Shown here piece by piece: positions 6,041-46,335 of a stretch of 64,000 bases of DNA (positions are counted from its first letter, which is position 1; each line of letters begins with the position of its first letter). The DNA comes from a virus: positions 159,303-223,302 of IMG/VR virus record IMGVR_UViG_3300032294_002797, one strand, 5' to 3'. The notes below the pieces were generated by a model, which worked only from the letters and a program-made list of their open reading frames with translations, made no database searches and was not told where the DNA came from. The position numbers and the translations under genes are program-made.

Positions 6041-8955
6041 AAGGAGTATTCTGTAACTATTTGAGGAATATCTTTTCTTAATCCGGTAAATGTCCAAAAG
6101 AAATCATATAGTCCATTAGTATCACAACCAACAGTAAACGTATTGTGTGGTATCTTAATGTCTTGTATATAAAGAATCTTATTGTGTTTATAGTTAGTAA
6201 TTTGTATATTAATACTATCGTCATCCAAAACTAAATCTTTAATATAGTCTGGTAAATTTACTACACAAACTCCATTTACAACAGTATCTTTTCCTGTTAA
6301 TCGTACTCCGTGATATGGGCTTTCTAATGAGCCGTATTCTAAAACATATCCAGGTTTTGATGGATGGCTTATTTTAAAGCTTTTAGTTGTAGCAGAAAAG
6401 GCTCCCGATACTGCCACATCTCCTACTACATCTAGTTTAACGGCTGGATTATTTTTACCAATTCCTACATTTCCTATATTATCTATTCTTAATCTTTCGG
6501 TGCCGCTAGTACTAATAGACAAGGTATTGGCTGATGGAGAAAATAAGCCTGTATCTGGATCATTGATAAATTCGAATGATGGTAAAGAAGAGGTACCCGA
6601 TCCTGCTATAAATGATCCTGTACAACTAACGTCTCCATTAAATGTACTGTTTCCAACTACATGAAATTTAGTTGAGGGTACTCCTGTTCCTATTCCAATA
6701 TTGCCGCCACTAGAAATCACAAAATCATTTTGATTAAATCTTCCTCCAATTATACTATCGTCACTAAATACTTCAAATATTGGCAAACCAGCATTATTAT
6801 TAACGCTCATTAAGCTACCGCTAAGACTGTCTACAACGCTGAATAGACTACCATTAGTACCTTCAACATTAAATACCAATTCTCCGCTAGTAGTAGAATA
6901 AACGTCTAATAAAGCATTAGGGACTAATCCAGTGGTTGAGGCAAATAATCCTGTTCCCACAACATGTAAACGTCCACTAGGAGCTGTTGTTCCTACTCCT
7001 AAATTACCAACCGACGTTAATCTCATTCTTTCGGTAGCAGCCGGAGAAAATCTGATATGTTGGTTAGCCGTTCCTGCATTATAACTATTTCCTATTTCAA
7101 CCTCTTGACTAAATGCTAAAACTCTTATTCTTCCAGCTTGACCTTCTAAATTAATTGTATTATCTCCACCCCTAACTATTAAACTATCACTAGTATCATT
7201 ATATAACCTATTATATGTTAGCGGTACTGCCGTACCTGATCGTGATATGTATAAAGAACCTTGAGAATAAGAATCTCCAAAAATATGTAAAAGACCACTT
7301 GGCGTTAATGTATTTATCCCAACAGCTCCAGCAAAATAGGCTCCTCCAGACGCATTAATATTAGAAAACATTATAGACCCATCTGCATTTCTGGTTTCTA
7401 TAGCGTTAGCAGTTTGACTGGCTACCTGTGATATGTAGATTCCTCTTCGACTAGGAATAACTGTGCTTACCTCCAATGAGGCGAGTCCGTTCCATGTTGT
7501 TTTAGAAACAGCTAATGTTGTATTATTAATAAATCCAGTTGAACCAAAAGATAAAAATCTTGTACCGCTTCCTTGACTAACATAAAAAGCATTCACGCTG
7601 TCTGTTCTAACATCTAAATCAAACGTTGGATTATTAGTGCCTATTCCTATTCTAGATGATACTATCCCGGTACCCAAAACATGTAGTTGTCCACTTGGTG
7701 TTGATGTTCCTATGCCAAAACTACCAGACGGTGTAATTCTAGCTTTTTCGCTACCGCCGGGATTAAACATAACATAAGCATTAGCAAATGCTGATCCTAT
7801 TTCGACTCCAACGCTTGATGATGACAGAACAAGTTTACCTCCATCTCCTTGTAGCTGTAAAGAATTACTTCCTCCAGCTAAAGTAAGATTTTGAGCACCA
7901 GCTCTTTGAATACTGCATCTATTTCTACTAGTGTCGGCGTAGTCTGTATCGTTTTGATTAAAATATAAAATTCCTTGAATTCTAGATTCTCCATTAATAT
8001 CCAAAACAGAGGATGGAGCAACCCGATTAACGGCTATGCCTGAAGAAAATATTCCCGTTCCTATAACATGTAATTGGCTACTAGGACTAGTTGTTCCTAT
8101 GCCCATATGTCCATTATTTCTGTTTATATGCAAAACATCAGACCAGCTTGTAGATCCTGCTCTGCGAGCAAGTCTAAGATTACCGTCAGTTGCTCTATCA
8201 AAAAATCCCCATCCATTATTTCCACTAGACAATTGAATATTATTGGTACTAGCTAAGAATGGAACTGAATCGTTATTGCCGACTCCGATGTGGGTCTTTA
8301 CTACATTGCTTGGATTACTTAAGAGTACGTAGCTATTATTAGCTACAATTCTTTCTATATGAAGTGCCCCGCTAGGATTAGTCGTTCCTATACCAACACT
8401 AGTATCATTATCAAAAATAACTCCACTAGTTAAACTATTACTTCCATTCCATCGTGAAACATAACCACTAATTCCAATTCCGGTAGTTAAATTAGCTGGA
8501 AATAGTCCACTTACGCTAGAGTTAAAATTAGTAATATTTGATGACGTATGAGTATGGCCGCTGACACTAATAGGAATATTGTTTAATAACCATGGTCCGC
8601 TAAAATTTAAAACTTCGTCGCCTTCGCTTGCTTCTATCGAGCCAGAAACATTATTACCATTAAAATATATTCTATGTATTCCATTAGAATTTATGGCTGG
8701 ATTTATTTCTATTCCACCTTCATAATAAGAAGGAGCATAAATCGATAAATTTTGAAATTGACCACTAGCTGGAGATATCAAACCAGAGGAACTAGCAACA
8801 TTTTTTAAACTATTCCAATTAGATACTCCGTCACCAATCTTTAAAATATTATTGGATAGATCATATCCTGGCTCTCCACTAGCTAGTATAGGATTGGTAC
8901 TGCTCCACTGAGATCCTGTTCCTTTTCGTATTGTAATGGCCGTATTAACTGGCAT
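6037..8955 (-). CDS. long tail fibre with Mtd_N-like head and GIGTxxPSGxLHV repeats
   Basis: 972 residues. Residues 1-50 match the Mtd_N pattern (ITIRKGTGSQW, NPILASGEPGYDLSNN, LKIGDGVSNWNSL). The shaft carries a SGHTHT motif and about seven copies of an element like GIGTTNPSGALHI or GVGTTAPSGRLHVVGTG, spaced by beta-rich segments. The last ~130 residues (SFKISHPSKPGYVLEYGSLE, then PYHGVRLTGKDTVV and FFWTFTGLRKD) form a terminal domain found in fibres of many T4-like environmental phages. No S74 chaperone catalytic pair was recognised. It is probably the main receptor-binding fibre. Confidence 0.85.
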   Translation of the reverse strand: MPVNTAITIRKGTGSQWSSTNPILASGEPGYDLSNNILKIGDGVSNWNSLKNVASSSGLISPASGQFQNLSIYAPSYYEGGIEINPAINSNGIHRIYFNGNNVSGSIEASEGDEVLNFSGPWLLNNIPISVSGHTHTSSNITNFNSSVSGLFPANLTTGIGISGYVSRWNGSNSLTSGVIFDNDTSVGIGTTNPSGALHIERIVANNSYVLLSNPSNVVKTHIGVGNNDSVPFLASTNNIQLSSGNNGWGFFDRATDGNLRLARRAGSTSWSDVLHINRNNGHMGIGTTSPSSQLHVIGTGIFSSGIAVNRVAPSSVLDINGESRIQGILYFNQNDTDYADTSRNRCSIQRAGAQNLTLAGGSNSLQLQGDGGKLVLSSSSVGVEIGSAFANAYVMFNPGGSEKARITPSGSFGIGTSTPSGQLHVLGTGIVSSRIGIGTNNPTFDLDVRTDSVNAFYVSQGSGTRFLSFGSTGFINNTTLAVSKTTWNGLASLEVSTVIPSRRGIYISQVASQTANAIETRNADGSIMFSNINASGGAYFAGAVGINTLTPSGLLHIFGDSYSQGSLYISRSGTAVPLTYNRLYNDTSDSLIVRGGDNTINLEGQAGRIRVLAFSQEVEIGNSYNAGTANQHIRFSPAATERMRLTSVGNLGVGTTAPSGRLHVVGTGLFASTTGLVPNALLDVYSTTSGELVFNVEGTNGSLFSVVDSLSGSLMSVNNNAGLPIFEVFSDDSIIGGRFNQNDFVISSGGNIGIGTGVPSTKFHVVGNSTFNGDVSCTGSFIAGSGTSSLPSFEFINDPDTGLFSPSANTLSISTSGTERLRIDNIGNVGIGKNNPAVKLDVVGDVAVSGAFSATTKSFKISHPSKPGYVLEYGSLESPYHGVRLTGKDTVVNGVCVVNLPDYIKDLVLDDDSINIQITNYKHNKILYIQDIKIPHNTFTVGCDTNGLYDFFWTFTGLRKDIPQIVTEYSL

Positions 8956-29728: not shown

Positions 29729-30359
29729 GAATCATTCACTCGATGTGAGTCATTTTTTTCTATTTGCTAATACAGAATATAGTAAAAATACAGAAAAACA
29801 ATTGTGGGAATCGTCTGCGTTTTTAAGCAAGAAATCTATTTGTATATTATTTAATTTAGCAAAGCCCTTGGACTACTATAGTATAGTTCAAAAACATGCA
29901 AATAAATGGATTTTTTTTCGGCTATTAGCAGACAATACAAATAATACTTATTATAGAAATTTGGATTTACTAAATTTGTATGATTTTCAAAAATTTTTTT
30001 TAATACCAGATATGTATGACGCTATCTATTTTGGCCCTAAAAAACAAGCGATATTAGAAACAATATCATATATTAAACAAAAGAATATAGACATAACAAA
30101 AATGAATCATATGGATATAAATAATAAAGTGCTGGAATCTGTCAAATCTTTATATCCAATCCAAGAAAATAAAGGAACTATGAGTAGTGGATTATGGACT
30201 TATCTATATCTGAAAACAAAATATCCCTTATCAAAATTTACTTTAATAGACTATGCTTTAAATATGAAATCTGCTTATCATAATTCGTTATTTGAACAGG
30301 GATTTATATTATCAGAAATATTGAGCAACCAATGTGAATACATTGGCGATCATTTATGA
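29700..30359 (+). CDS. unknown protein, possible GT29-like glycosyltransferase
   Basis: 219 residues, overlapping the cupin gene by 29 nt. The N-terminus has SHFFLFANTEYSKN, and the middle has YDAIYFGPKKQAILETISYI. The C-terminal stretch TMSSGLWTYLYLKTKYPLSK followed by FTLIDYALNMKSAYHN and ...EQGFILSEI is reminiscent of the sialyltransferase-like (GT29) pattern TG...Y......HxxxxE. I would not assign activity. Convergent with ruvB, overlapping its end by 6 nt. Confidence 0.6.
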   Translation: MKILSDLFFRNHSLDVSHFFLFANTEYSKNTEKQLWESSAFLSKKSICILFNLAKPLDYYSIVQKHANKWIFFRLLADNTNNTYYRNLDLLNLYDFQKFFLIPDMYDAIYFGPKKQAILETISYIKQKNIDITKMNHMDINNKVLESVKSLYPIQENKGTMSSGLWTYLYLKTKYPLSKFTLIDYALNMKSAYHNSLFEQGFILSEILSNQCEYIGDHL

Positions 30360-31259
30360 TGATAAAATTCTACCTTTAGACGTTCTAACAATATATCCCA
30401 TTCGTACTAAGAATGGTTCCACGGTATTTTCTATGGTCTCTACTGCTATGCCAGTCATTGCAGAAATACTTTTAACTCCTAGAGGAGAACCCTTCATCTT
30501 TTTCAGAGCATCTAGATATAATCTATCATGCATATCTAAACCATTTTGATCTATACCCTGATCTTTAAAGATTTTGTCTATATCTACAGTTTGATCTTTA
30601 TAATAAGATACATAATTTTTATACCAACTCAATCTAGCATTAAGAATACGAGGAGTACCCTTGCTTCTTTTAGCAATTTCAATCAGATGACTATCATCAA
30701 TCATTAGTCCAAGTTTATTTGCGTTCAACCTTGCAAGTTTAGCTAATTCATCGCTGTTATAATAAGATAGGTGTTCTTTAATTGTAAATCTATCATAAAA
30801 AGGCTGACTTAAGCTGCCTCCACTTGTGGTTGCTCCAGCGATAGTAAATTGTGGAAGATCGATGGTTTCTGGACGGTCTTTATCATCCTCTCCCTTTACT
30901 GTGATATTAATAGCAAAATCTTCCATTACAGGATAAAGAAATTCTTCTACAATTTTTGGTAGTCTATGAATTTCGTCAATAAACAAAAGAGATCTTGGAG
31001 CAATACCCATGAGATAAGGCAGAAGATTTTTTACGCTACGGATATTAGCTGCGTTGACTGTATAGAGATTAACACCTAGTTCATTAGATATTGCTTGTGC
31101 TATAGTGGTTTTACCAAGACCAGGAGGCCCATCAATTAGAACATGAGGTAAAACTCCGTCCGATTCCTTGCATCCGTGAATAATAATTTTTAGTCTGTCG
31201 ATAACAGATGATTGTCCAATAATTCCATCAAAACTAGACGGTCTTAGATTGTTAGCCAT
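30354..31259 (-). CDS. ruvB: RuvB-like Holliday junction branch-migration ATPase
   Basis: 301 residues versus ~335 for bacterial RuvB. The start LRPSSFDGIIGQ is the RuvB N-terminus. Walker A is GPPGLGKTT (44-52), Walker B LLFIDEIHRL (91-100) and sensor 1 IAGATTSGGSLSQPFYDRF. The C-terminal winged helix carries KGSPLGVKSISAMTG, ETIENTVEPFLVRMG and RTSKGRIL, diagnostic of RuvB rather than clamp loaders. Its start overlaps a gene for a protein with a RuvA domain-III-like tail, indicating a working pair. Role: motor for Holliday or replication-fork remodelling. Confidence 0.9.
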   Translation of the reverse strand: MANNLRPSSFDGIIGQSSVIDRLKIIIHGCKESDGVLPHVLIDGPPGLGKTTIAQAISNELGVNLYTVNAANIRSVKNLLPYLMGIAPRSLLFIDEIHRLPKIVEEFLYPVMEDFAINITVKGEDDKDRPETIDLPQFTIAGATTSGGSLSQPFYDRFTIKEHLSYYNSDELAKLARLNANKLGLMIDDSHLIEIAKRSKGTPRILNARLSWYKNYVSYYKDQTVDIDKIFKDQGIDQNGLDMHDRLYLDALKKMKGSPLGVKSISAMTGIAVETIENTVEPFLVRMGYIVRTSKGRILSS

Positions 31260-34608: not shown

Positions 34609-37272
34609 TTAAATTATCGAATTACCAATCAACTCTTTAAACTTATCAACATTATCAAACTTTGTTGACCAAGAACTTTTCTTGCTATAGTAACTATTAC
34701 TAGAACCAAAACTGAGAGGATTAGTTGAACGAAGTTCACGCAAATCGCCTCGACACTCTTGGCTACACACAATATACTTCAACATCGGCTGTTTGTCAAG
34801 AGCCTCTTTAATACTATTACGCAACTCATCGACTTTCGGCAGTTTATCTTTGAGCGAATAATCTGGCTTGATAAGTTTGGTCATAGATTCTTGCTCATTA
34901 GAACTACCATACAATGTAGCAACCCATCGAATGAGACTATTATAGAGAATATTATTCTGACGAATATCTTTACTATTGATTCCATTCAGCCCAATATTGT
35001 GCAACAGTTTCGTGATATGGGTAAAATAATCAACAGCCTTAAACTTTTGAATATCAAATGATGGTCTATAAATAGTGTCAGCAAAGAATTCAAGAGTCAT
35101 ACACTGATCCATTAGAGATACAAGTTGCTGATCTTTAATGTATTGACCATATTCCAGTCCAAGTAGGTTTAGAACATGAAACATAAACTGCTTATCAATA
35201 CTACCATAGTTATAGTAATTGTAATCACTACCTTTCTGGACTTTATTGTATTCAGACCTAGCGTGTTCTGTAAGACCATTATATTCGGCTAAATCCTTAA
35301 ACTTATTCTCATACAGTTTCTCTAGTCTTTCCTTAAAGAACTTATTGAAACTAATAAGGTTATAGCCCTTCTTGATTAGATCATTAGCATAACTGCTCTT
35401 TATCGCAAAGATTTTAGTATCTCCGAAAAGTTCAGTAGCAAGTGTGCTGTCCTGCTCTTTAATAAAGAGATTCAGATCATGAATACCAGGAAATCCTTCA
35501 ACAGAAGCATATCGCAAGATAGGAATGTATACGATCTCATCCTGTTCAAGAACATCGTCTCTTTCTTCCTGATCCTTAATTTCAAGAAGATACTGAGCAT
35601 CGTTCATAAGATTATCGCTTACGATAGCCCCAGCACTCTTAATCTTACCATGAATCAAGAATAGACTATCCTTACTGACAGAACCAAGAGGATCAACAGT
35701 GCGACCCTTCTTTGAAGGACTACTCAAAAGACTCTTAAAATCCGAGACCTTAAGGAGTTTATCTTCTCCCCCAATATCAGAAATAATCTTTTCAAAACCC
35801 TCAGACGAATCTTCTGGATGGTCGCTGTCGATAAAAAGATAGGCATAGCAATCGTTCTGATTACAATACTTTGTAACAATCTTCTTGGCAGACTCTTCTC
35901 CCTTAACGTCACAAACAAAGAACGCCATAGGATTACTTTTACGATTATTCTGCCAGTAATACTGACCCTTGCCATTCAATGTTTCGGAGTGAATCTTATC
36001 TGTAAGATAAACCATCCTACGAGAACGGTATCCAGAGGTTCTAAAGTTAAAGACGTACAGATTCTTACTCTTTTTAAGAGTGTACTCTAGGTCTTTTCCA
36101 GACTGCAATTCATGAACCTTATTATTAGTATCCGTCCATGATGCTCCCGCAGTCCAGCCACCAGCAAGATCACTAAGATTATAGTATGTTTGATAAGCCT
36201 CAACCAAACTCTTGGCGGTTGACAACTTATTGCTCATATCCTGCTTAAGTTCAAGATAGATTTCTTGAGTACGATCACGCAGAGTCTTGATAACATTTTT
36301 AGTATACTGCAAACCCTCGCGGCTTACATCCATCTCAAGTTCACCAATACCAAATTGGATCTCAAGATATAATCCGGCATTAAGAATCTCTCTGACTAGA
36401 CTCTTCCAATTATCAACGTCGGCTTTACCAAAAGCCCTATTCCACTTTTGAATATGGTCTGGTTGATCGGGCCTATCTTCGCCCACAATTTTACTAGAGT
36501 CTACTGGATACGCAATATTACCCATGATAGCAACAACACCACTACCGGGACTATTATGACCACTAGGATATTTGGTGTGTTCATTACTAACTCGTCCAAT
36601 CTTCCAACCCTTACCTTCGATCACAACATTGTGATGAGAATACGAGCCATCATTAATCGATGAACAAACACCACCATTGATAATAGGCTTAAGTTTGAAA
36701 TAATGGAAAATTCTCTTTGCCTTAGCAGTAAACTCATGAAAGTCATACTGCTTAACAGCAAAACTAATTTCTAGTCCATTCGGTTCCTTGGTATCTGTGA
36801 CACTAACCAAATTCAAACTAGGAACACCGCTTTCATCCATAGCCGCGATATAAGATAGTTTCTTACCATCATAATAAGAAATAGTGCTAAAACTCTTGGT
36901 ATAAGCAAAAGGACTCTTACTACCAAGACCAAGACAACCAACAAAATCATTGCTATCATTCTTGTTAGATGCCCCGTATGTTGTATACAATTCCTCCATA
37001 TCGGTCTGACTAAGACCAGTACCAAAATCTCTAACAGTAAAAGAGGGATTGGTTTGTGTGGGGAGAGTTACCCTAAAAGGGTTTTGATTTTTTGCAGCAA
37101 TATGGGCGTCATAAGCATTTGTGCTAAGTTCACGAATAACCGCCATAACCTTATCGGAATAAAGAGAATCCGAAAGGATCTTAAACATTTTGCTGGTTTG
37201 TGCGATACTAAACTGATTAGCCGACTGAATACCAACCGAATGAATCTCAACCGTCCTGTCTGCCAACTTCAT
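34609..37272 (-). CDS. rIIA: RIIA-like protein (GHKL ATPase)
   Basis: 887 residues. The N-terminal GHKL ATP-binding domain shows the N box (IRELSTNAYDAH), G1 (VRDFGTGLSQTD) and G2 (CLGLGSKSPFAYTKSF). The middle is beta-rich, and the C-terminal part is helical with several Asn/Tyr-rich stretches. Length and order match rIIA of T4-like environmental phages. GGAG precedes the ATG, and a near-consensus promoter lies 42 nt upstream, so rIIA-rIIB form an early unit. Confidence 0.9.
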   Translation of the reverse strand: MKLADRTVEIHSVGIQSANQFSIAQTSKMFKILSDSLYSDKVMAVIRELSTNAYDAHIAAKNQNPFRVTLPTQTNPSFTVRDFGTGLSQTDMEELYTTYGASNKNDSNDFVGCLGLGSKSPFAYTKSFSTISYYDGKKLSYIAAMDESGVPSLNLVSVTDTKEPNGLEISFAVKQYDFHEFTAKAKRIFHYFKLKPIINGGVCSSINDGSYSHHNVVIEGKGWKIGRVSNEHTKYPSGHNSPGSGVVAIMGNIAYPVDSSKIVGEDRPDQPDHIQKWNRAFGKADVDNWKSLVREILNAGLYLEIQFGIGELEMDVSREGLQYTKNVIKTLRDRTQEIYLELKQDMSNKLSTAKSLVEAYQTYYNLSDLAGGWTAGASWTDTNNKVHELQSGKDLEYTLKKSKNLYVFNFRTSGYRSRRMVYLTDKIHSETLNGKGQYYWQNNRKSNPMAFFVCDVKGEESAKKIVTKYCNQNDCYAYLFIDSDHPEDSSEGFEKIISDIGGEDKLLKVSDFKSLLSSPSKKGRTVDPLGSVSKDSLFLIHGKIKSAGAIVSDNLMNDAQYLLEIKDQEERDDVLEQDEIVYIPILRYASVEGFPGIHDLNLFIKEQDSTLATELFGDTKIFAIKSSYANDLIKKGYNLISFNKFFKERLEKLYENKFKDLAEYNGLTEHARSEYNKVQKGSDYNYYNYGSIDKQFMFHVLNLLGLEYGQYIKDQQLVSLMDQCMTLEFFADTIYRPSFDIQKFKAVDYFTHITKLLHNIGLNGINSKDIRQNNILYNSLIRWVATLYGSSNEQESMTKLIKPDYSLKDKLPKVDELRNSIKEALDKQPMLKYIVCSQECRGDLRELRSTNPLSFGSSNSYYSKKSSWSTKFDNVDKFKELIGNSII

Positions 37273-37314
37273 TTTAATTCTCCAAAGTGTCGTTTTCTGT
37301 CCTGTGATCTCCCA

Positions 37315-37343
37315 AGTATACTATCGGTTGTCACGCTTGTCAA
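37315..37343 (-). promoter_or_regulatory. sigma70-type promoter of rIIA-rIIB
   Basis: TTGACA, exactly 17 bp, TATACT on the minus strand, 42 nt before the rIIA start. The -35 element lies in the last codons of the small membrane gene upstream. One of the best consensus matches in the window. Confidence 0.9.
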
Positions 37344-37596
37344 GCATGAGTTTTTTATTTGCCTCTCGTCTTGTATTAATAGCCATCAGTCCTAAACCAG
37401 CAGAAACTAAACCTAGCCAACGTATGCCCGCGATAGGTAGTAGAAAAAACCATACTCCTATAAATATTGTCAAAATACTAATTAGATATACAATAATATT
37501 TGGAATAATTTGGATCTTAGAAAGCAATAAGCATATCGGGCCACTTAATATAACGGATAGTGCTACTATTGAGGCCAATAATGCTAAACTTGCCAT
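37321..37596 (-). CDS. small membrane protein
   Basis: 91 residues with three hydrophobic segments (ALLASIVALSVILSGPICLL; NIIVYLISILTIFIGVWFFL; WLGLVSAGLGLMAI) and a basic C-terminus REANKKLMLDKRDNR. Its start shares a base with the upstream stop. The rIIA promoter lies in its 3' end. No family recognised. Confidence 0.65.
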   Translation of the reverse strand: MASLALLASIVALSVILSGPICLLLSKIQIIPNIIVYLISILTIFIGVWFFLLPIAGIRWLGLVSAGLGLMAINTRREANKKLMLDKRDNR

Positions 37597-37916
37597 TAAA
37601 TATCCTCTTCATCATCATCGTCGCGGTTTTCTTCCCAATTATTTACTTCTGGAAGCCATCCTTCATTAGACTGGTATTCTTCTTCACCATCATCTTCGTC
37701 CAGAATAGATTCAGCATCTTCTATAAAGATAGTTAATGTGTTTAAAATTTCTAATACATCATCAAGTTTATTAGACAAAGATTTTACATCCTTTTTTAGA
37801 CCTTGGATTTCTCTGTCTAATTCACCGATTTCTTTAGATATTCTGTCATCTACTTTATGTAGTTCTTTATTACTTTTAATTACTTCCCTGATGATATCAT
37901 TAAATTCACGAGACAT
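37596..37916 (-). CDS. coiled-coil protein
   Basis: 106 residues from MSREFNDIIREVIKSNKEL. A long heptad region (ISKEIGELDREIQGLKKDVK; SLSNKLDDVLEILNTLTIFI) is followed by a very acidic tail with DDDDEEDI. AAGGAA precedes the ATG at 37916. It overlaps the next gene upstream by 11 nt. Unknown function; an oligomer is likely. Confidence 0.65.
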   Translation of the reverse strand: MSREFNDIIREVIKSNKELHKVDDRISKEIGELDREIQGLKKDVKSLSNKLDDVLEILNTLTIFIEDAESILDEDDGEEEYQSNEGWLPEVNNWEENRDDDDEEDI

Positions 37917-38208
37917 TTTTATATTCCTTAATATCGCCATTTTGTACTATTTTCTTATCTTCATACGGACTAGCCACACGACGATAATACTCTTGCTTTA
38001 TATTCTCTAATACACCAGTAATCATAGCAATATTATTGTAGGTGGGCTCACCCATTAAACTCGCTAGAATACGAGAAAAACTATAGTTAATATCGCCCAA
38101 AATTTCTTCCATAGAACCAGTATTATATCTTCCACCGTCCAAACAATGTGTGATTTCTTCTATACAAAAATTTAAACGATCTCTACGATCTTCTTTAATA
38201 TATGGCAT
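37906..38208 (-). CDS. conserved phage protein (MPYIKEDRR family)
   Basis: 100 residues. PYIKEDRRDRLNFCIEEITH, GDINYSFSRILASLMGEPTY, MITGVLENIKQEYYRRVASP and YEDKKIVQNGDI form a conserved small family seen in many T4-like and jumbo phages. All-helical; function unknown. Confidence 0.75.
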   Translation of the reverse strand: MPYIKEDRRDRLNFCIEEITHCLDGGRYNTGSMEEILGDINYSFSRILASLMGEPTYNNIAMITGVLENIKQEYYRRVASPYEDKKIVQNGDIKEYKNVS

Positions 38209-38210
38209 AA

Positions 38211-38738
38211 TTAATCCTCACTACATCTACATTGGTATTCTTCACAGTAGCAACATTTTGGCCCAGGTTCAGACATTCCCCAAGCATTACTTATTCCGCT
38301 AAAACTTTCTTTGCCAGTATCTATACAAACCAACTTTTTTTTGTCTGCTCTTAATACTAAGCCGACATTAAACCAGTGACAATCCCAAAATTTAAGCCCC
38401 GTCTTATCTTGTATAATTTCTACAAGACTTTGAATTTTTCTCATACTACTATCAGTATGCTTAACAGGATAGGCTCTTTCTGTAATATATCCCCAATCAC
38501 TAGGTTCGTCAGGCTTATAACCATCATCTTCTGCAAATTCTAGTTTGATAATCTTACTATAAAGTTTTGGAGCAAGATCAAGACCGGCCAGTAATTTGTG
38601 GTATTTGTAAGATTCTTGGGCTTTTCTTTTATTGCGAAACTCTTTAAATACCCAGCCTTTTTTGTCCTTAATTGGATATACTTGACAATATCCACCTTCA
38701 TCACACCAGTCGCTATAGTCGATAAGATATTTAGTCAT
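38211..38738 (-). CDS. protein kinase-like protein
   Basis: 175 residues with a minimal kinase-like layout. DEGGYCQVYPI (glycine-loop-like) and GWVFKEFRNKRKAQESYKYH (the VAIK-type strand and helix C) are followed by GLDLAPKLYS. Later LKFWDCHWFNVGLVLRADKK then KLVCIDTGKESF reproduce the catalytic HxDxxxxN...DxG pattern with changes (D-C-H-W-F-N; I-D-T-G). The tail is a cysteine cluster (KCCYCEEYQCRCSED), perhaps a zinc knuckle. It may be a small active kinase or a kinase-fold scaffold. Confidence 0.6.
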   Translation of the reverse strand: MTKYLIDYSDWCDEGGYCQVYPIKDKKGWVFKEFRNKRKAQESYKYHKLLAGLDLAPKLYSKIIKLEFAEDDGYKPDEPSDWGYITERAYPVKHTDSSMRKIQSLVEIIQDKTGLKFWDCHWFNVGLVLRADKKKLVCIDTGKESFSGISNAWGMSEPGPKCCYCEEYQCRCSED

Positions 38739-38739
38739 A

Positions 38740-39057
38740 TTAGTACGAGATAATTTGAGGAATTTCTCCGGTCAAATTATAAAGAAATTCTTTGGCTGAC
38801 TCTATTGTAAAGAAATCACCAAGAAAAATTGGCTTACTTAACTTATCATCAATATATCGTTTGCCATATATTTTATAGAATGGCTCATCAATAGCGTTCC
38901 AATCATTAATTAGGAACTGCTCCGCACTTTTTACTTGTTCAAGTATAGTGCCATTCTCATAATCGTCATATTCTCGTACTGTTACCAATTCAAAATATGC
39001 TATTGGAGATTTTGGATTGTTGTTTTTGATCAAGCCATTACATAGAGTATTAGACAT
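38740..39057 (-). CDS. hypothetical protein
   Basis: 105 residues from MSNTLCNGLIKNNNPKS. Alpha/beta with SPIAYFELVTVREYDDYENG, DDKLSKPIFLGDFFTIESAK and EFLYNLTGEIP. The start at 39057 overlaps the upstream stop by 8 nt. Not recognised. Confidence 0.6.
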   Translation of the reverse strand: MSNTLCNGLIKNNNPKSPIAYFELVTVREYDDYENGTILEQVKSAEQFLINDWNAIDEPFYKIYGKRYIDDKLSKPIFLGDFFTIESAKEFLYNLTGEIPQIISY

Positions 39058-39715: not shown

Positions 39716-39989
39716 TAGGGGCTATCGGATTCGAACCGATACTGTACGGATTTTCTTACTACTATAACTTTCGTTACCATTTCTGTTTGTAGTCTGGACT
39801 TTACCTTAACCATAGTTTTCACTTTAGGTTCCTGCCGTCAAGTCTCTACACCTTCATATTTCTATGCTTGGCTCGGTATTGCCATTTTACAGGTTTCACC
39901 GAATTTGACAAGTTCTACTTTAAAGATTTCTCTCTAAGCACTCCAATTTAACTAAAAGTCCGATGACTCTGCCGTTGGTCTAAGCCCCC
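39716..39989 (-). tRNA. tRNA with UAA anticodon, interrupted by a group I intron
   Basis: 5' exon 39956-39989 (34 nt), intron 39755-39955, 3' exon 39716-39754 (39 nt). Spliced, the acceptor is GGGGGCT/AGCCCCT (7 bp), the D-arm GACC-AACGGCAGA-GTC, the anticodon arm TCGGA-CTTAAAA-TCCGT, the variable loop ACAGT and the T-arm ATCGG-TTCGAAT-CCGAT, with discriminator A and no encoded CCA. The intron splits U34 from A35. Anticodon UAA reads UUA (Leu), but the 5-nt variable loop is class I, unlike normal tRNA-Leu, so the charging identity is uncertain. Flank 39990-40093 holds nothing else I can identify. Confidence 0.85.
39755..39955 (-). ncRNA. group I intron (tRNA-Leu UAA / IC3-like), 201 nt
   Basis: Core elements in order on the minus strand: GGAGT near the 5' end pairs with exon ACTT(T) as P1 with a U-G splice pair; AAATTCGGTGAAACC and GGCAATACCGAGCCAAGC are the P/Q-P3-P4-P6 strands; GGTGTAGAGACTTGACGGCA is R; AAGGTAAAGTCCAGACTACA is S; GTAACGAAAGTTATAGTAG is P9, ending in the terminal G before exon AAAATCC. 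These blocks follow the cyanobacterial and chloroplast trnL intron almost word for word. No internal ORF. It is shorter than the usual 230-300 nt, mostly through small peripheral loops. Confidence 0.88.
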
Positions 39990-40093
39990 ATAATAACCCT
40001 GACTACACAAACCACTGATTTGAGGTTGACTAATGTTGTGCCTCTATCATATCTGTGTAGCCAGAGTTTATTATAAGTTGAAATTTACAAAAA

Positions 40094-40375
40094 TCAACCG
40101 TTGCTGTGAGCCTTGAGGCGACGAACAATGTCGGCCATAGCCTCAACATTATCAACCGTCTTAATGGGCTTCGCACGTTCCATAGTGGGCAGTTCAATAC
40201 CCTTCTTAGAAAGAGCGGCCTTGGTACGAGCAAAACGAGCCATCGTACTAGCAACCTTCTGACCAGTCTTTGACGCAATTTCGGCATACGTCTTAGACGA
40301 AAAAACAGCCTCAAGAAACTGCTCGTCACTGCAACGAACTCTTGTCTGCTTATCAACCGTAGTAACTTCAGCCAT
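40094..40375 (-). CDS. small helix-turn-helix-like protein
   Basis: 93 residues from MAEVTTVDKQTRVRCSDEQF. LEAVFSSKTYAEIASKTGQK followed by VASTMARFARTKAALSKKGI is a helix-turn-helix-like layout, and the end NVEAMADIVRRLKAHSNG is helical. GGAGG lies 9 nt before the ATG at 40375, and a consensus promoter is 76 nt upstream. G+C and codon choice (GTC, GCC, CGT) are higher than in neighbours, as for a highly expressed or imported gene. Possible transcription regulator. Confidence 0.65.
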   Translation of the reverse strand: MAEVTTVDKQTRVRCSDEQFLEAVFSSKTYAEIASKTGQKVASTMARFARTKAALSKKGIELPTMERAKPIKTVDNVEAMADIVRRLKAHSNG

Positions 40376-40450
40376 AATCAACCTCCAAATCATTTTCCAA
40401 ACTTGTTGAGCAAGTCGATCACGCGACCGAATCCTTGCATCAACTCACCC

Positions 40451-40479
40451 ATTCTACAACACTGTATCGGCACTGTCAA
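40451..40479 (-). promoter_or_regulatory. sigma70-type promoter
   Basis: TTGACA, 17 bp, TAGAAT on the minus strand between the secreted metalloprotease gene and the HTH-like gene. It would transcribe the HTH gene and probably the intron-bearing tRNA. Confidence 0.85.
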
Positions 40480-40523
40480 TAGGCTTCCTTGAAAAATTTT
40501 CCGCACCTGACCAATTTTTAGAG

Positions 40524-41345
40524 TTAGTCAACAAAAATCCCGTCAAACTCAGTTTTTAAAAACTGTCTAATAGGCTCTGCGTCCTTGTGATTTAAAAGAG
40601 CCTGTTGTAACCTATCCTGTTCCTTATTACGAAATTCTGGAACGTCCGCACCAGCACTAAAAGCCCGCTCAGACCGAATCAAATTATACTTGATAAAACC
40701 TTTAAACTGAGTATTAGTTTCCCAAAATACTGGATCATTTTCTTTTACTGCTATTGCTAACGCAGTAGCATATATGCTGAATTCTAATGCTCCAGACACA
40801 GCATTAGTTTTTTCTAATTGTCTATTTCTTTTAAAGTCATCTACAGCACACTCAGCACCAAGTACATAAGAGTTCCATTCGTCTAAAATATATGTAGGAA
40901 CCTCATCCCAATATACTAATTGATCTTCTAAATATAGTTTGTATCTTGATGATCTTAAAACTTCTGGAATATATCTTTGTATATGACGAATTTTTATATT
41001 TGGATCTTCCACAATAACACATTTGCTGTCTAAACAATAAAATCCATTCACAGATTTTTTAAGTAATGGCTTATACTTTTGTCTTAGTTCGTTGTGTATG
41101 CCGTGTGCTGTTTCATGAACATTGGTATATCGGCCGTCTTTATCTCCATGAGGCTGTTGTTTAGAATGACTTAAAACGTCGCTATATATATCGTCCCCAG
41201 ATAAATTTCTATACTTTGGTACAAACAAAAAATCTAAAGATTCATGTTTTGGCTGAACTATTTTTGGTACTATTGCAGTATAATTTTGTCCAAAATATTG
41301 CTGCTGTTGACCAAAAAAGAAAAGTAAGAAAATGGTAGGTAACAT
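40524..41345 (-). CDS. exported zinc metalloprotease-like protein (HETAH)
   Basis: 273 residues. A hydrophobic N-terminus (LPTIFLLFFFG) suggests a short signal peptide. VHETAHGIHNELR supplies HExxH at H77-E78-H81. Downstream acidic and Tyr-rich segments (IQRYIPEVLRSSRYKLYLED; DEVPTYILDEWNSYVLGAEC) probably carry the third ligand in a gluzincin-like E (DEWNSY), which is inference. A role outside the cytoplasm, for example on the host envelope, is likely. Confidence 0.65.
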   Translation of the reverse strand: MLPTIFLLFFFGQQQQYFGQNYTAIVPKIVQPKHESLDFLFVPKYRNLSGDDIYSDVLSHSKQQPHGDKDGRYTNVHETAHGIHNELRQKYKPLLKKSVNGFYCLDSKCVIVEDPNIKIRHIQRYIPEVLRSSRYKLYLEDQLVYWDEVPTYILDEWNSYVLGAECAVDDFKRNRQLEKTNAVSGALEFSIYATALAIAVKENDPVFWETNTQFKGFIKYNLIRSERAFSAGADVPEFRNKEQDRLQQALLNHKDAEPIRQFLKTEFDGIFVD

Positions 41346-41406
41346 AGCATCACCATAATGTATTCTAAATTGTCCATAATATAGAATACACTATAAGCGT
41401 ATGCTA

Positions 41407-41589
41407 TTATTCTTCGTTTGGTAATATTATTGCTAACAATAAATATGCCCAAAATACCAGACTACCAGAAAAAATAGCACCTAATACAAAGGCTATTCTT
41501 ACTAATGTAACGTCTATGCCGCTCCATTGTGCTATCCCTCCACACACGCCAAAAAGCGATTTATTTTTAGACTTAACTAATTTAGCCAT
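41407..41589 (-). CDS. PspC-domain membrane protein
   Basis: 60 residues, essentially a complete PspC domain: KSLFGVCGGIAQWSGIDVTL, VRIAFVLGAIF and a membrane helix FWAYLLLAIILPNEE. In bacteria PspC senses envelope stress and controls PspA; small stand-alone PspC proteins are rare in phages. It may protect membrane potential during infection or dampen the host response (inference). Confidence 0.85.
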   Translation of the reverse strand: MAKLVKSKNKSLFGVCGGIAQWSGIDVTLVRIAFVLGAIFSGSLVFWAYLLLAIILPNEE

Positions 41590-41669
41590 GTTGAAATATC
41601 CATTGGGTTATATCCATTTAACAGTAATGCTTGATATAAGCCTATCACTGGCTCTAACTCATGTATCAT
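41577..41669 (-). CDS. micro-protein of 30 residues
   Basis: MIHELEPVIGLYQALLLNGY then NPMDISTWLN. Supported by AAGGAATAAATT directly before the ATG and by a 13-nt overlap with the PspC start, the usual gene joint here. Unknown function. Confidence 0.45.
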   Translation of the reverse strand: MIHELEPVIGLYQALLLNGYNPMDISTWLN

Positions 41670-41672
41670 AAT

Positions 41673-41942
41673 TTATTCCTTATTGTTAAGAGTAACTTTA
41701 ACTATAATATAGTCTTTTTGTTCTGAGTCAATAAGATCAATTCCAATCACTTTGCCCCTACCCAAAAAGTTATGACCAATATGAACCAAAGGCCCACAAT
41801 CAAAGTCTATATAACTTATAGCATACTCGCTTTCGCCGCCAATTTTTGTATTATCTGAATTGCCTTCAATCAAAAACTGAGTATCACTAATTTGAGTAAA
41901 TGTTAATTGTTTACCACTCTTACATTTGGGTGGACTAGACAC
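41673..41942 (-). CDS. hypothetical beta-rich protein (GTG start)
   Basis: 89 residues. KQLTFTQISDTQFLIEGNSD, SEYAISYIDFDCGPLVHIGH and GKVIGIDLIDSEQKDYIIVK. The GTG at 41942 overlaps the upstream stop by 8 nt. A small beta-sandwich is likely; no family recognised. Confidence 0.6.
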   Translation of the reverse strand: MSSPPKCKSGKQLTFTQISDTQFLIEGNSDNTKIGGESEYAISYIDFDCGPLVHIGHNFLGRGKVIGIDLIDSEQKDYIIVKVTLNNKE

Positions 41943-42135
41943 AAATTGCCTCGCTGTCGAGAACTAAATCTGTATTATTTTCTGACGCTAGATTTATAAG
42001 AACGTCTTTGAGTCTATGGTTTTCAGACTCTAATGTATTTATAATACTCTGTGCCTGAGTTAGTGCAAATTGTAGATGTTTTACTTTATTAGCAAGTTCA
42101 TCAGCCACATAACTGTTCATACTTCTTACTACCAT
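41935..42135 (-). CDS. short coiled-coil protein
   Basis: 66 residues. One continuous helix, ADELANKVKHLQFALTQAQS followed by IINTLESENHRLKDVLINLA, with leucine heptads. GGAGG precedes the ATG. It is probably a dimerising accessory protein; function unknown. Confidence 0.6.
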   Translation of the reverse strand: MVVRSMNSYVADELANKVKHLQFALTQAQSIINTLESENHRLKDVLINLASENNTDLVLDSEAICV

Positions 42136-42184
42136 AGGTAAACCTCCTTGAAAAAAGAAGATTGGCTCACCATAATATACACCA

Positions 42185-42469
42185 CTATGATCGTAGATCT
42201 AAGCCTGATAAAAAAGTTTTAAGATCACTTAGTTGCTTATTATCTAACATTATTTGATCGGCATACGGTTTTTTGTGGAATAAAACCTGCCAACAGTACC
42301 GTAGTCTCTGCCATAATGACATCTTTGATTTATAGGCTACTTGATGTTCATAAATAGCAAAATCAGCCATTTGCATTTCATGATCATATTCTATCATAAG
42401 AATTTCACTACGACAACCACAAGGAATAAAAAGAGTCTTATTTGTTTTTAGATTTGTTGTGCTTCCCAT
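42185..42469 (-). CDS. conserved phage protein (FIPCGCRSE family)
   Basis: 94 residues. LFIPCGCRSEILMIEYDHEM, ADFAIYEHQVAYKSKMSLWQ, RLRYCWQVLFHKKPYADQIM and LDNKQLSDLKTFL. This order is conserved in many T4-like cyanophage-type genomes as an uncharacterised protein. It overlaps the 42-residue basic gene by 32 nt. Confidence 0.7.
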   Translation of the reverse strand: MGSTTNLKTNKTLFIPCGCRSEILMIEYDHEMQMADFAIYEHQVAYKSKMSLWQRLRYCWQVLFHKKPYADQIMLDNKQLSDLKTFLSGLDLRS

Positions 42470-42566
42470 CTTTTTCTTTCTTAAAGATTCTTTCGTAGTT
42501 TTTATCCCAGGTTTCCTGAGAAATCAATCGCGGTCTTTTTTTAGAACCTTTACCGTTTTGACTCAT
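42438..42566 (-). CDS. small basic conserved phage protein
   Basis: 42 residues: MSQNGKGSKKRPRLISQETW then DKNYERIFKKEKDGKHNKSK. The N-terminal NGKGSKxRPR block followed by W/F-D-x-N-Y/W-x-x-IF is a family seen in many phages of this type. GGAG lies 5 nt before the ATG, and its ATG abuts the HhH-protein stop. Confidence 0.75.
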   Translation of the reverse strand: MSQNGKGSKKRPRLISQETWDKNYERIFKKEKDGKHNKSKNK

Positions 42567-43265
42567 TTAATTCTCCAGAACAAAACTCCAGTACCGACTA
42601 TCTTCTTTCTTTTGAAGATCATCCCAATAAATCGAGCGGGCGATATAGGATGGAACCTTGAGTTTACCACAATTAATCATCCAATGACGCTCCATCTTCT
42701 TATAAATCGATGATCCCAACTTACTTTTATTATACTTTAGAGACTCAACATCGTAAAGTCGAAGTTGATGTATATCTCCACACAATACTCTAGCCTCATT
42801 AGGATGAATCATCTCTAGAGCAAAACTAATCTTTGCCAAACCAATACCCCTAATTTTATTCAAGATACTGTCTCGTTTCTTGACATGATACTTTTTAGTA
42901 GTAAAATAAAAGTCTTTAGGATTAGTCCAAAACTTGGTACTAAAATCCCAAATATAATTAGTGCGATTATTATGCAGTCCTACGCCGCTCTTGTGGAGTT
43001 TTGTCAAAAGAATTTCTTTGTTATCCACCCACTCGCTAAAATTCTTTATAGCATTATATCCTTTAACATTACCCTGCCAAGTGGTATGGACGCTGCAAAA
43101 AGAAAAGAGATAGCGACGGAAAATATCTTCGTCAGTCTTGGGGCGAACAGTTTCCCAATAGTCTTTATAGGCAACCACCTTATCCTTTGGGAAGTTCTTA
43201 AAGAACTCGTCAGCCTTGCTCGTACTCATAACAACGGGTTTTTTCTCAACAACAATCTCTGTCAT
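42567..43265 (-). CDS. HhH-type DNA glycosylase-like protein
   Basis: 232 residues from MTEIVVEKKPVVMSTSKADE. The core ILNKIRGIGLAKISFALEMI followed by EARVLCGDIHQLRLY is a helix-hairpin-helix motif and the segment where HhH-GPD glycosylases hold the catalytic Asp (D in CGDIH). GAGGA precedes the ATG at 43265, and a consensus promoter follows upstream. Possible base-excision or structure-binding role in DNA repair; no Fe-S cluster cysteines are seen. Confidence 0.65.
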   Translation of the reverse strand: MTEIVVEKKPVVMSTSKADEFFKNFPKDKVVAYKDYWETVRPKTDEDIFRRYLFSFCSVHTTWQGNVKGYNAIKNFSEWVDNKEILLTKLHKSGVGLHNNRTNYIWDFSTKFWTNPKDFYFTTKKYHVKKRDSILNKIRGIGLAKISFALEMIHPNEARVLCGDIHQLRLYDVESLKYNKSKLGSSIYKKMERHWMINCGKLKVPSYIARSIYWDDLQKKEDSRYWSFVLEN

Positions 43266-43302
43266 ATTGTCCTCAAAGGTTAGTTCCAAAGTGTATGCTG
43301 CT

Positions 43303-43331
43303 ATTCTACACTTATCGTATCGTCTTGTCAA
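43303..43331 (-). promoter_or_regulatory. sigma70-type promoter
   Basis: TTGACA, 17 bp, TAGAAT on the minus strand, 38 nt before the HhH-protein gene. A plus-strand HNH gene begins 72 nt beyond it. Confidence 0.88.
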
Positions 43332-43403
43332 GACCCGTTTCTTTAGGTTTTGTAGCCAACTGGTGTATAAAAGTGTAAGGTTTCATATTACGAGGATTGA
43401 TCT

Positions 43404-44042
43404 ATGAAAAAACAATGTGCTAAATGTCTAAAAAAATTTCCCGCTACAAATGAATACTTTTATAAAGATAAAAGAGCATCGTCTGGCTGTTGTTCTAGAT
43501 GTAAAAGATGTCATAATAAACAAAGAAAAGAATATTTAATGAATCAAGATAACTCTAATAAGCATAAAGAAAGATGCAAAAAATATTATCGCGCACATAA
43601 AAATAAAATAGCAGAATATTATAAAGATAATAGAGATCAAATACTAAAAAGAAAAAAAGAATACAGACATAAAAATAAAAAGAAAATTGCTGAATATAAA
43701 TATTGGTATCATAAAAATAGGTATAAAAATGATTTACAGTATAGGCTATTGCATAACTGTGGAAATCATATAAGAAAATATCTAAAACAAAATAAAAACG
43801 ATAAACGGTCAACAGAATTGTTGGGATGTTCTACACTAGAATTGAAGGCATATCTAGAAAAACAATTTGATAATAAAATGTCATGGAAAAATTATGGTAC
43901 TTATTGGCATATCGACCATATCATTCCATGTTCTAGTTTTGACTTTACCGATCCCATACAACAACAACAGTGTTTTCATTATACAAATTTACAGCCATTA
44001 GAGGCAAAAGCAAATATTAAAAAAGGAAATAAAATACTTTAG
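43404..44042 (+). CDS. HNH homing-type endonuclease (plus strand)
   Basis: 212 residues. An N-terminal zinc finger (CAKCLKKFPATNEYF... CSRCKRCHNKQ) is followed by a long basic KxxY-rich helix region (~50-115) and a C-terminal HNH-like domain: LLGCSTLELKAYLEKQFDNK, MSWKNYGTYWHIDHIIPCSS with DHI and H, then HYTNLQPLEAKANIKKGNK. It lies opposite to all neighbours and converges on the ligase gene (4-nt overlap), typical of a free-standing homing nuclease inserted between resident genes. It is related to the HNH at 60764-61435. Confidence 0.85.
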   Translation: MKKQCAKCLKKFPATNEYFYKDKRASSGCCSRCKRCHNKQRKEYLMNQDNSNKHKERCKKYYRAHKNKIAEYYKDNRDQILKRKKEYRHKNKKKIAEYKYWYHKNRYKNDLQYRLLHNCGNHIRKYLKQNKNDKRSTELLGCSTLELKAYLEKQFDNKMSWKNYGTYWHIDHIIPCSSFDFTDPIQQQQCFHYTNLQPLEAKANIKKGNKIL

Positions 44043-45972: not shown

Positions 45973-45979
45973 AATATAA

Positions 45980-46335
45980 TGGAGGCGGCGGGGTACTGCC
46001 CCCCGCGTCTTGTTATATTGTCCACAATATTTTCTACAAGTTTATTTTGTTCATAAATTTTAAACAAGATTAAAGAGCAAACAACATTCATCTTGTCGTA
46101 CCAACTAGTCTCAGGCTAGAACCCGTTGGCTATTCTAGCAGCCGAAGGATTTTACGACAATCTTTTGAACGCTACCTTCATCGCTTTCTAAGATTGTTAC
46201 TGCTTTTTATTAAGCAGCAAGGGCTAACTGAGTATTGCCAGTTAAAGCACTTGATATGATGATTAAAGAGGCCAACATATCATCCTCTACTTGCTTATAT
46301 GGTTTCTAATATTCAATCGATTCTAATTCGCCCCC
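45980..46335 (-). ncRNA. ssrA: tmRNA (ssrA), phage-encoded
   Basis: 356 nt on the minus strand. The ends pair as an acceptor stem GGGGGCG/CGCCTCC with discriminator A. The 5' part TTAGAATCGATTGAATATTA and GTTGGCCTC follow the E. coli tmRNA order, and ACGCGGG near the 3' end leads the T-arm. A tag frame ends GCTGCTTAATAA within a hairpin (GCTGCTT...AAGCAG), as in bacterial tmRNAs, and several paired segments (pseudoknot region) follow. The T-loop reads GGCAGTA instead of TTCGATT. No CCA is encoded. Would rescue stalled ribosomes and tag products. Confidence 0.9.
46210..46248 (-). other. tmRNA tag-peptide reading frame
   Basis: Predicted tag ALTGNTQLALAA followed by TAATAA. The resume codon is taken as the GCT at 46248, preceded by ATATCAAGT, comparable to the ATAGTC before the E. 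coli resume codon. The LALAA end resembles the ALAA protease-recognition end of bacterial tags. The frame is open upstream, so a longer tag beginning at an earlier Ala codon cannot be excluded. Confidence 0.75.

Follow-up and report, generated by a model that had tools for sequence, protein, structure and literature searches.

The window analysed here, a 64,000-nt stretch of a 223,302-base virus record (IMG/VR record IMGVR_UViG_3300032294_002797), comes from a large uncultured phage and contains on its minus strand (39989-39716) a tRNA-Leu(UAA) gene in whose anticodon loop a 201-nt group I intron separates U34 from A35. This intron is very probably of the self-splicing type and an optional passenger that is exchanged among phage tRNA-Leu genes. 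Its structure, its exact boundaries, its absence from a sister phage, its sharing between unlike tRNA bodies and its kinship with other phage introns are each documented by the comparisons presented below, and the coordinates of the features are given in Table 1. The ribozyme class and the insertion site are known ones; the setting is unusual and evidently common.

The split tRNA gene and the fold of its intron

The Rfam model Intron_gpI (RF00028) matches positions 39965-39774 of the minus strand at 56.3 bits (E=1.3e-11 for the 64-kb window), a score modestly higher than the gathering cut-off of 50 bits. The split tRNA is the sole group I locus found by the Rfam scan in the whole virus record. 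With its intron option on, ARAGORN reports a tRNA-Leu(taa) that holds a 201-nt intron, and without that option it calls no tRNA at the locus. The intron is flanked by CGGACTT and AAAATCCG, and the joined exons read GGGGGCTTAGACCAACGGCAGAGTCATCGGACTT up to the junction and AAAATCCGTACAGTATCGGTTCGAATCCGATAGCCCCTA after it. Hence, the sequence-only reading of this DNA, which had described a phage tRNA split by a 201-nt group I intron and had proposed the Rfam model as a check, was correct in the class, length, coordinates, flanks and insertion point of the element.

Table 1. Features of the split tRNA-Leu(UAA) locus (window coordinates)
Feature	Position	Strand	Evidence
Conserved leader hairpin RNA, ~95 nt, directly 5' of tRNA	39988..40083	-	fold z=-7.5; covariance model R1
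5' exon of tRNA-Leu(UAA), ends at U34	39956..39989	-	ARAGORN with introns; intron-less L412 allele
Group I intron, 201 nt, without ORF	39755..39955	-	RF00028 56.3 bits; covariation; exact absence in L412
Internal guide GAG, pairs with exon CUU (P1; U.G at 5' splice site)	39941..39943	-	invariant, 46/46
P3, 5' strand	39907..39912	-	both bases changed in 4/6 pairs; all cells (100%) pair
P7, 5' strand (helix of the guanosine site; pseudoknot with P3)	39840..39844	-	covariation
P3, 3' strand	39831..39836	-	covariation
P7, 3' strand	39797..39801	-	covariation
Terminal guanosine (omega G)	39755..39755	-	G in 97/98 phage tRNA-Leu introns among matches listed
3' exon of tRNA-Leu(UAA), A35 to A73	39716..39754	-	sequence; ARAGORN with introns

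Covariation was assessed in an alignment of 46 tRNA-Leu(UAA) introns with their exon edges, 42 from phage and 4 from bacterial genomes. Across this alignment 95.9% of pair cells form, which is far beyond chance, compared with 81.2% for shuffled partners and 25-43% for slid partners, although the percentage is biased towards the window because the P1-P9 layout was drawn partly on its own sequence. Changes on both sides of a pair depend less on that layout, and 34 pairs are altered in this way in at least one of the 46 sequences. For example, P3 contains no broken cell while most of its pairs vary, and the P7 pair 122:161 is U-A in 25 sequences and A-U in 21. Such covariation, with controls, extends over P3, P5, P7, P8 and P9, and the exon CUU and the terminal G are as invariant as the guide GAG; every aligned intron forms U.G at its 5' splice site. 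By its layout, the intron is IC3-like.

The boundaries are fixed by an intron-less allele in L412, an 11-kb contig from a syntenic sister phage that carries the same tRNA-Leu gene behind an almost identical leader hairpin. This contig is 81.6% identical to the window at 37000-38775 and 83.6% identical at 39956-43345. Its alignments abut at the adjacent positions 6212/6213, which correspond to 39956/39754 of the window, so that the insert is exactly 39755-39955 and the splice positions predicted from the sequence coincide with the L412 junction. The intron is likewise absent from 20 loci located behind the same hairpin motif. A further comparison, in which intron-plus loci always read GGACTT/AAAATCC and intron-less loci vary, was not counted as proof: the loci are related, and the exons of the intron-plus loci were mis-set in the count.

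The window's tRNA has both the UAA anticodon and the A73 of a tRNA-Leu, while the CCA end is not encoded in its 3' exon. Its body is type I, 73-75 nt long, with a variable loop of 5 nt in place of the long variable arm of bacterial type II tRNAs. A type I body is unusual for bacterial tRNA-Leu and makes charging of this tRNA with leucine uncertain. Intron-less type I tRNA-Leu(UAA) genes are found in cultured cyanophages (e.g., S-CREM1 and P-SSM7) and in Lactobacillus phage LP65. Short variable loops were observed in the tRNA-Leu genes of loci L134, L135, L136 (Lactobacillus phage LP65) and L137, and those of LP65 include UAG and CAA besides UAA. The window has a GC content of 34%, and TTA is the commonest leucine codon in 21 of its ORFs (36%).

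Two other readings of the locus were weighed against this evidence. The short variable loop would also fit a tRNA-Phe(GAA), spliced after U33 with the G staying in the 3' exon, and several related loci are indeed called Phe(gaa) by ARAGORN. Such splicing would deprive the intron of the terminal G that is kept almost throughout the phage introns (Table 1), and both the intron-less alleles and the intron-less homologues in cultured phages, which are annotated as tRNA-Leu, read CTTAAAA. As the uninterrupted loop of L412 has this same sequence, the Phe reading is excluded at this locus, and we consider it extremely unlikely overall; the labels Phe(gaa) and Tyr(ata) that ARAGORN attaches to the same introns are a product of shifted boundaries. 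The intron might instead have decayed into a relic that no longer splices and that silences the tRNA gene, a suggestion favored by the moderately stable minimum-energy fold of the single copy (z -1.7), which is weak as evidence. This too is very unlikely, given that every core pair and invariant position is intact in the window's intron and that relatives display compensatory change.

Kinship with phage introns and with cyanobacterial trnL

Cyanobacterial and plastid tRNA-Leu(UAA) IC3 introns share the U34/A35 site, the CUU/GAG P1 and the P3-P9 core with the window's intron, which the sequence-only reading had assigned to the cyanobacterial type, with transfer from cyanobacteria as an implied origin. 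The shared insertion site stands, and the same site of tRNA-Leu(UAA) is also used in proteobacteria. Descent does not follow. The P, Q, R and S blocks, which the sequence-only reading had matched to trnL introns, are common to the whole tRNA and phage group I family, and cyanobacterial trnL introns are longer at the loci examined (221-312 nt versus 201 nt), forming a separate clade in cellular genes with long variable arms.

Phage introns have the highest core identity (92-95%). Lower values were obtained for phage introns outside tRNA genes (in capsid genes; 81%), for tRNA-Leu introns of proteobacteria (79%) and for a cyanobacterial tRNA-fMet intron (78%), and cyanobacterial trnL introns reach 69.5% at most. 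Over 78 nt, the core is up to 96% identical to introns in phage protein genes, such as the capsid genes of pelagiphages HTVC120P and KM23-C739, the value of 96% being that for a capsid-gene intron of a marine podophage; these introns use another guide sequence. The introns of proteobacterial tRNA-Leu(UAA), tRNA-Arg(CCU) and tRNA-Ile/Met(CAU) and of cyanobacterial tRNA-fMet also have the same core and an anticodon-loop insertion, but are cellular and do not exceed 79% core identity.

Phylogenies reconstructed on approximately 130 columns, with plastid introns left out and many forks not firm, agree with these values. A quick tree of 205 cores placed the window in an almost wholly phage group of 81 rows (SH-aLRT 90), with cyanobacterial trnL elsewhere. 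In a careful tree, a grouping of the phage Leu introns with cyanobacterial trnL was rejected (p-AU 4e-5). An extended tree, to which the cyanobacterial loci best matching the window were added, again grouped the window with phages (99/84 with locus L025 and 98/82 for eight phage rows) and recovered cyanobacterial trnL as a clade of its own (100/100). No tree, within this plastid-free sampling, grouped the window with cyanobacterial trnL.

An intron that descended from cyanobacterial or plastid trnL and reached the phage through a cyanobacterial host would account for the common insertion site and be in keeping with the type I tRNA-Leu genes of cyanophages, intron-less as they are there. When the window alone was joined to cyanobacterial trnL, the AU test was borderline: the grouping was just rejected in the careful tree (p=0.046) and not rejected in the extended tree (p=0.17). 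Against this origin stand the low core identity to trnL, the separate trnL clade, the rejections in the careful tree (clear for the phage Leu introns together, narrow for the window), the predominance of tRNA-fMet introns among the matches that scored best in 292 cyanobacterial genomes, and the fact that no psbA-type gene, a cyanophage marker, occurs in the genome. We therefore regard a cyanobacterial origin as highly improbable. The comparisons firmly place the window's intron in the phage branch instead of the cyanobacterial and chloroplast branch. It should be noted that this placement concerns near kinship, where the phage grouping is steady, and not the deep root, which the value of p=0.17 leaves without a firm position.

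The leader hairpin and the genome surroundings

A conserved hairpin RNA lies directly upstream of the tRNA gene. The covariance model R1, constructed from ten relatives with the window excluded, finds it at 61.1 bits (E=1.4e-12) as the single match in the whole record. The motif was detected in a total of 38 IMG/VR contigs, all 38 with a tRNA-Leu(UAA) downstream; the tRNA contains the intron in 18 of them and none in the other 20, and in two of these 20 an HNH gene separates hairpin and tRNA. The leader hairpin belongs with the tRNA gene and not with the intron. No family was found at the hairpin in an Rfam scan of the window, and BLAST against cultured-phage records returned no real match.

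The virus record is that of a tailed phage, with genes for RIIA, tail fibres and DNA ligase. Nine further tRNAs, all intron-less, are located ~180 kb from the split tRNA, in a cluster (G000:C1:18994-22651) that encloses the sole HNH match in the genome (19637-19711). Other features of the window include a phage-encoded tmRNA at 45977-46335 (minus strand; Rfam 100 bits), which ARAGORN does not call and in which one reading frame ends in ...GNTQLALAA; an Endonuclease VII-like ORF at 43404-44042 on the plus strand, opposite to its neighbours; and a RuvB-like Holliday junction helicase gene at 30354-31259 (minus strand).

Exchange among phage tRNA genes

The introns nearest to the window's are in phages; that of locus L107 is 98% identical to it over 201 aligned bases (95% with gaps counted). 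The tRNA body of L107 is type II with a long variable arm and matches the window's tRNA at only 52% overall, and its leader hairpin is of another subfamily. Near-identical introns in such unlike bodies show that the intron has moved between unlike tRNA-Leu genes of related phages. The window's intron contains no ORF of at least 80 aa and encodes no homing endonuclease, nor was an HNH gene detected next to it. Among its relatives, an HNH endonuclease ORF (L003:1100-1564) lies within the tRNA-Leu intron, 700 nt long, of LR756511, a phage of 595 kb, and at L402 and L410 an HNH endonuclease gene in opposite orientation separates the leader hairpin from an intron-less tRNA-Leu(UAA). These proteins may cut the tRNA-Leu site and are possible drivers of the intron.

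The IMG/VR pattern GGACTT..GAGCCAAG..AAAATCC matched at least 120 contigs, and of 121 pattern matches ~20 were dropped as chance occurrences without a tRNA or core. At least 98 loci are tRNA-Leu(UAA) genes with the intron, representing at least 69 distinct introns in at least 34 short type I and at least 64 long type II bodies. A core-only scan extended the family, among the matches listed, to other tRNAs and to sites outside tRNAs in viral contigs, and in bacteria mainly to tRNA-Leu(UAA), tRNA-Arg(CCU) and Met/Ile(CAU). Both scans need exact motifs, and their counts are lower bounds from a biased sample. The family is thus present in tRNA genes of at least ~100 other uncultured phage sequences, which bears out the second suggestion of the sequence-only reading, a largely unrecognised phage reservoir. 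Published phages are represented by LR756501 (735 kb), LR756511 and Agrobacterium phage Atu_ph07, whose tRNA-Leu introns have the same site and core as the window's but, unlike it, long-variable-arm bodies; LR756511 also differs in its intron-borne HNH gene. The intron is missing from the listed features of Atu_ph07, and the other two records are without annotation. A further observation concerns L010 (LR756508, a 484-kb phage), in which ARAGORN calls intron-split tRNA-Lys(UUU) and tRNA-Arg(UCU) genes near each other, with a HEARO RNA close by.

Taken as a working model, the transcript would run from the leader hairpin through the 5' exon and the intron to the 3' exon. The intron would fold into P1-P9 and bind guanosine in P7; cleavage would follow U34, held as U.G by the guide GAG, and U34 would be joined to A35 after the terminal G of the intron. 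The freed tRNA, if aminoacylated, would read UUA, the commonest leucine codon of the phage. Sister phages may have or lack the intron at one and the same locus, and different tRNA-Leu genes of phages have exchanged it; this optional passenger would likely travel by DNA recombination, at times driven by HNH homing endonucleases whose genes lie in or next to this tRNA gene in some relatives. More tentatively, and in our view less likely than not, phage tRNA introns might constitute a large, freely exchanging pool that is a source and not a sink for some bacterial tRNA introns, and tRNA-Leu(UAA) and the undescribed leader hairpin might be one unit, with the hairpin acting on tRNA expression or processing.

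A 2014 review places every phage group I intron known at that time in a protein gene, although phages have many tRNA genes (PMC3984707). Introns in phage tRNA genes are described for Lak megaphages by Devoto et al. 2019 (PMC6784885), where tRNA-Tyr and tRNA-Thr are named as hosts and the main-text passages on them do not use the term group I. This was the only such report found in a search of openly available papers, and earlier ones may exist; the recent papers on phage introns covered by the search are silent on introns in phage tRNAs.

These results indicate that tRNA introns are common in phages, including huge, jumbo and uncultured ones, and that phage tRNA sets are under-counted, since tRNA finders without an intron option miss split genes. 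Phages are now candidate carriers of an intron family that has long served as the textbook example of ancient vertical descent. Sister phages with and without the intron make its gain and loss directly testable.
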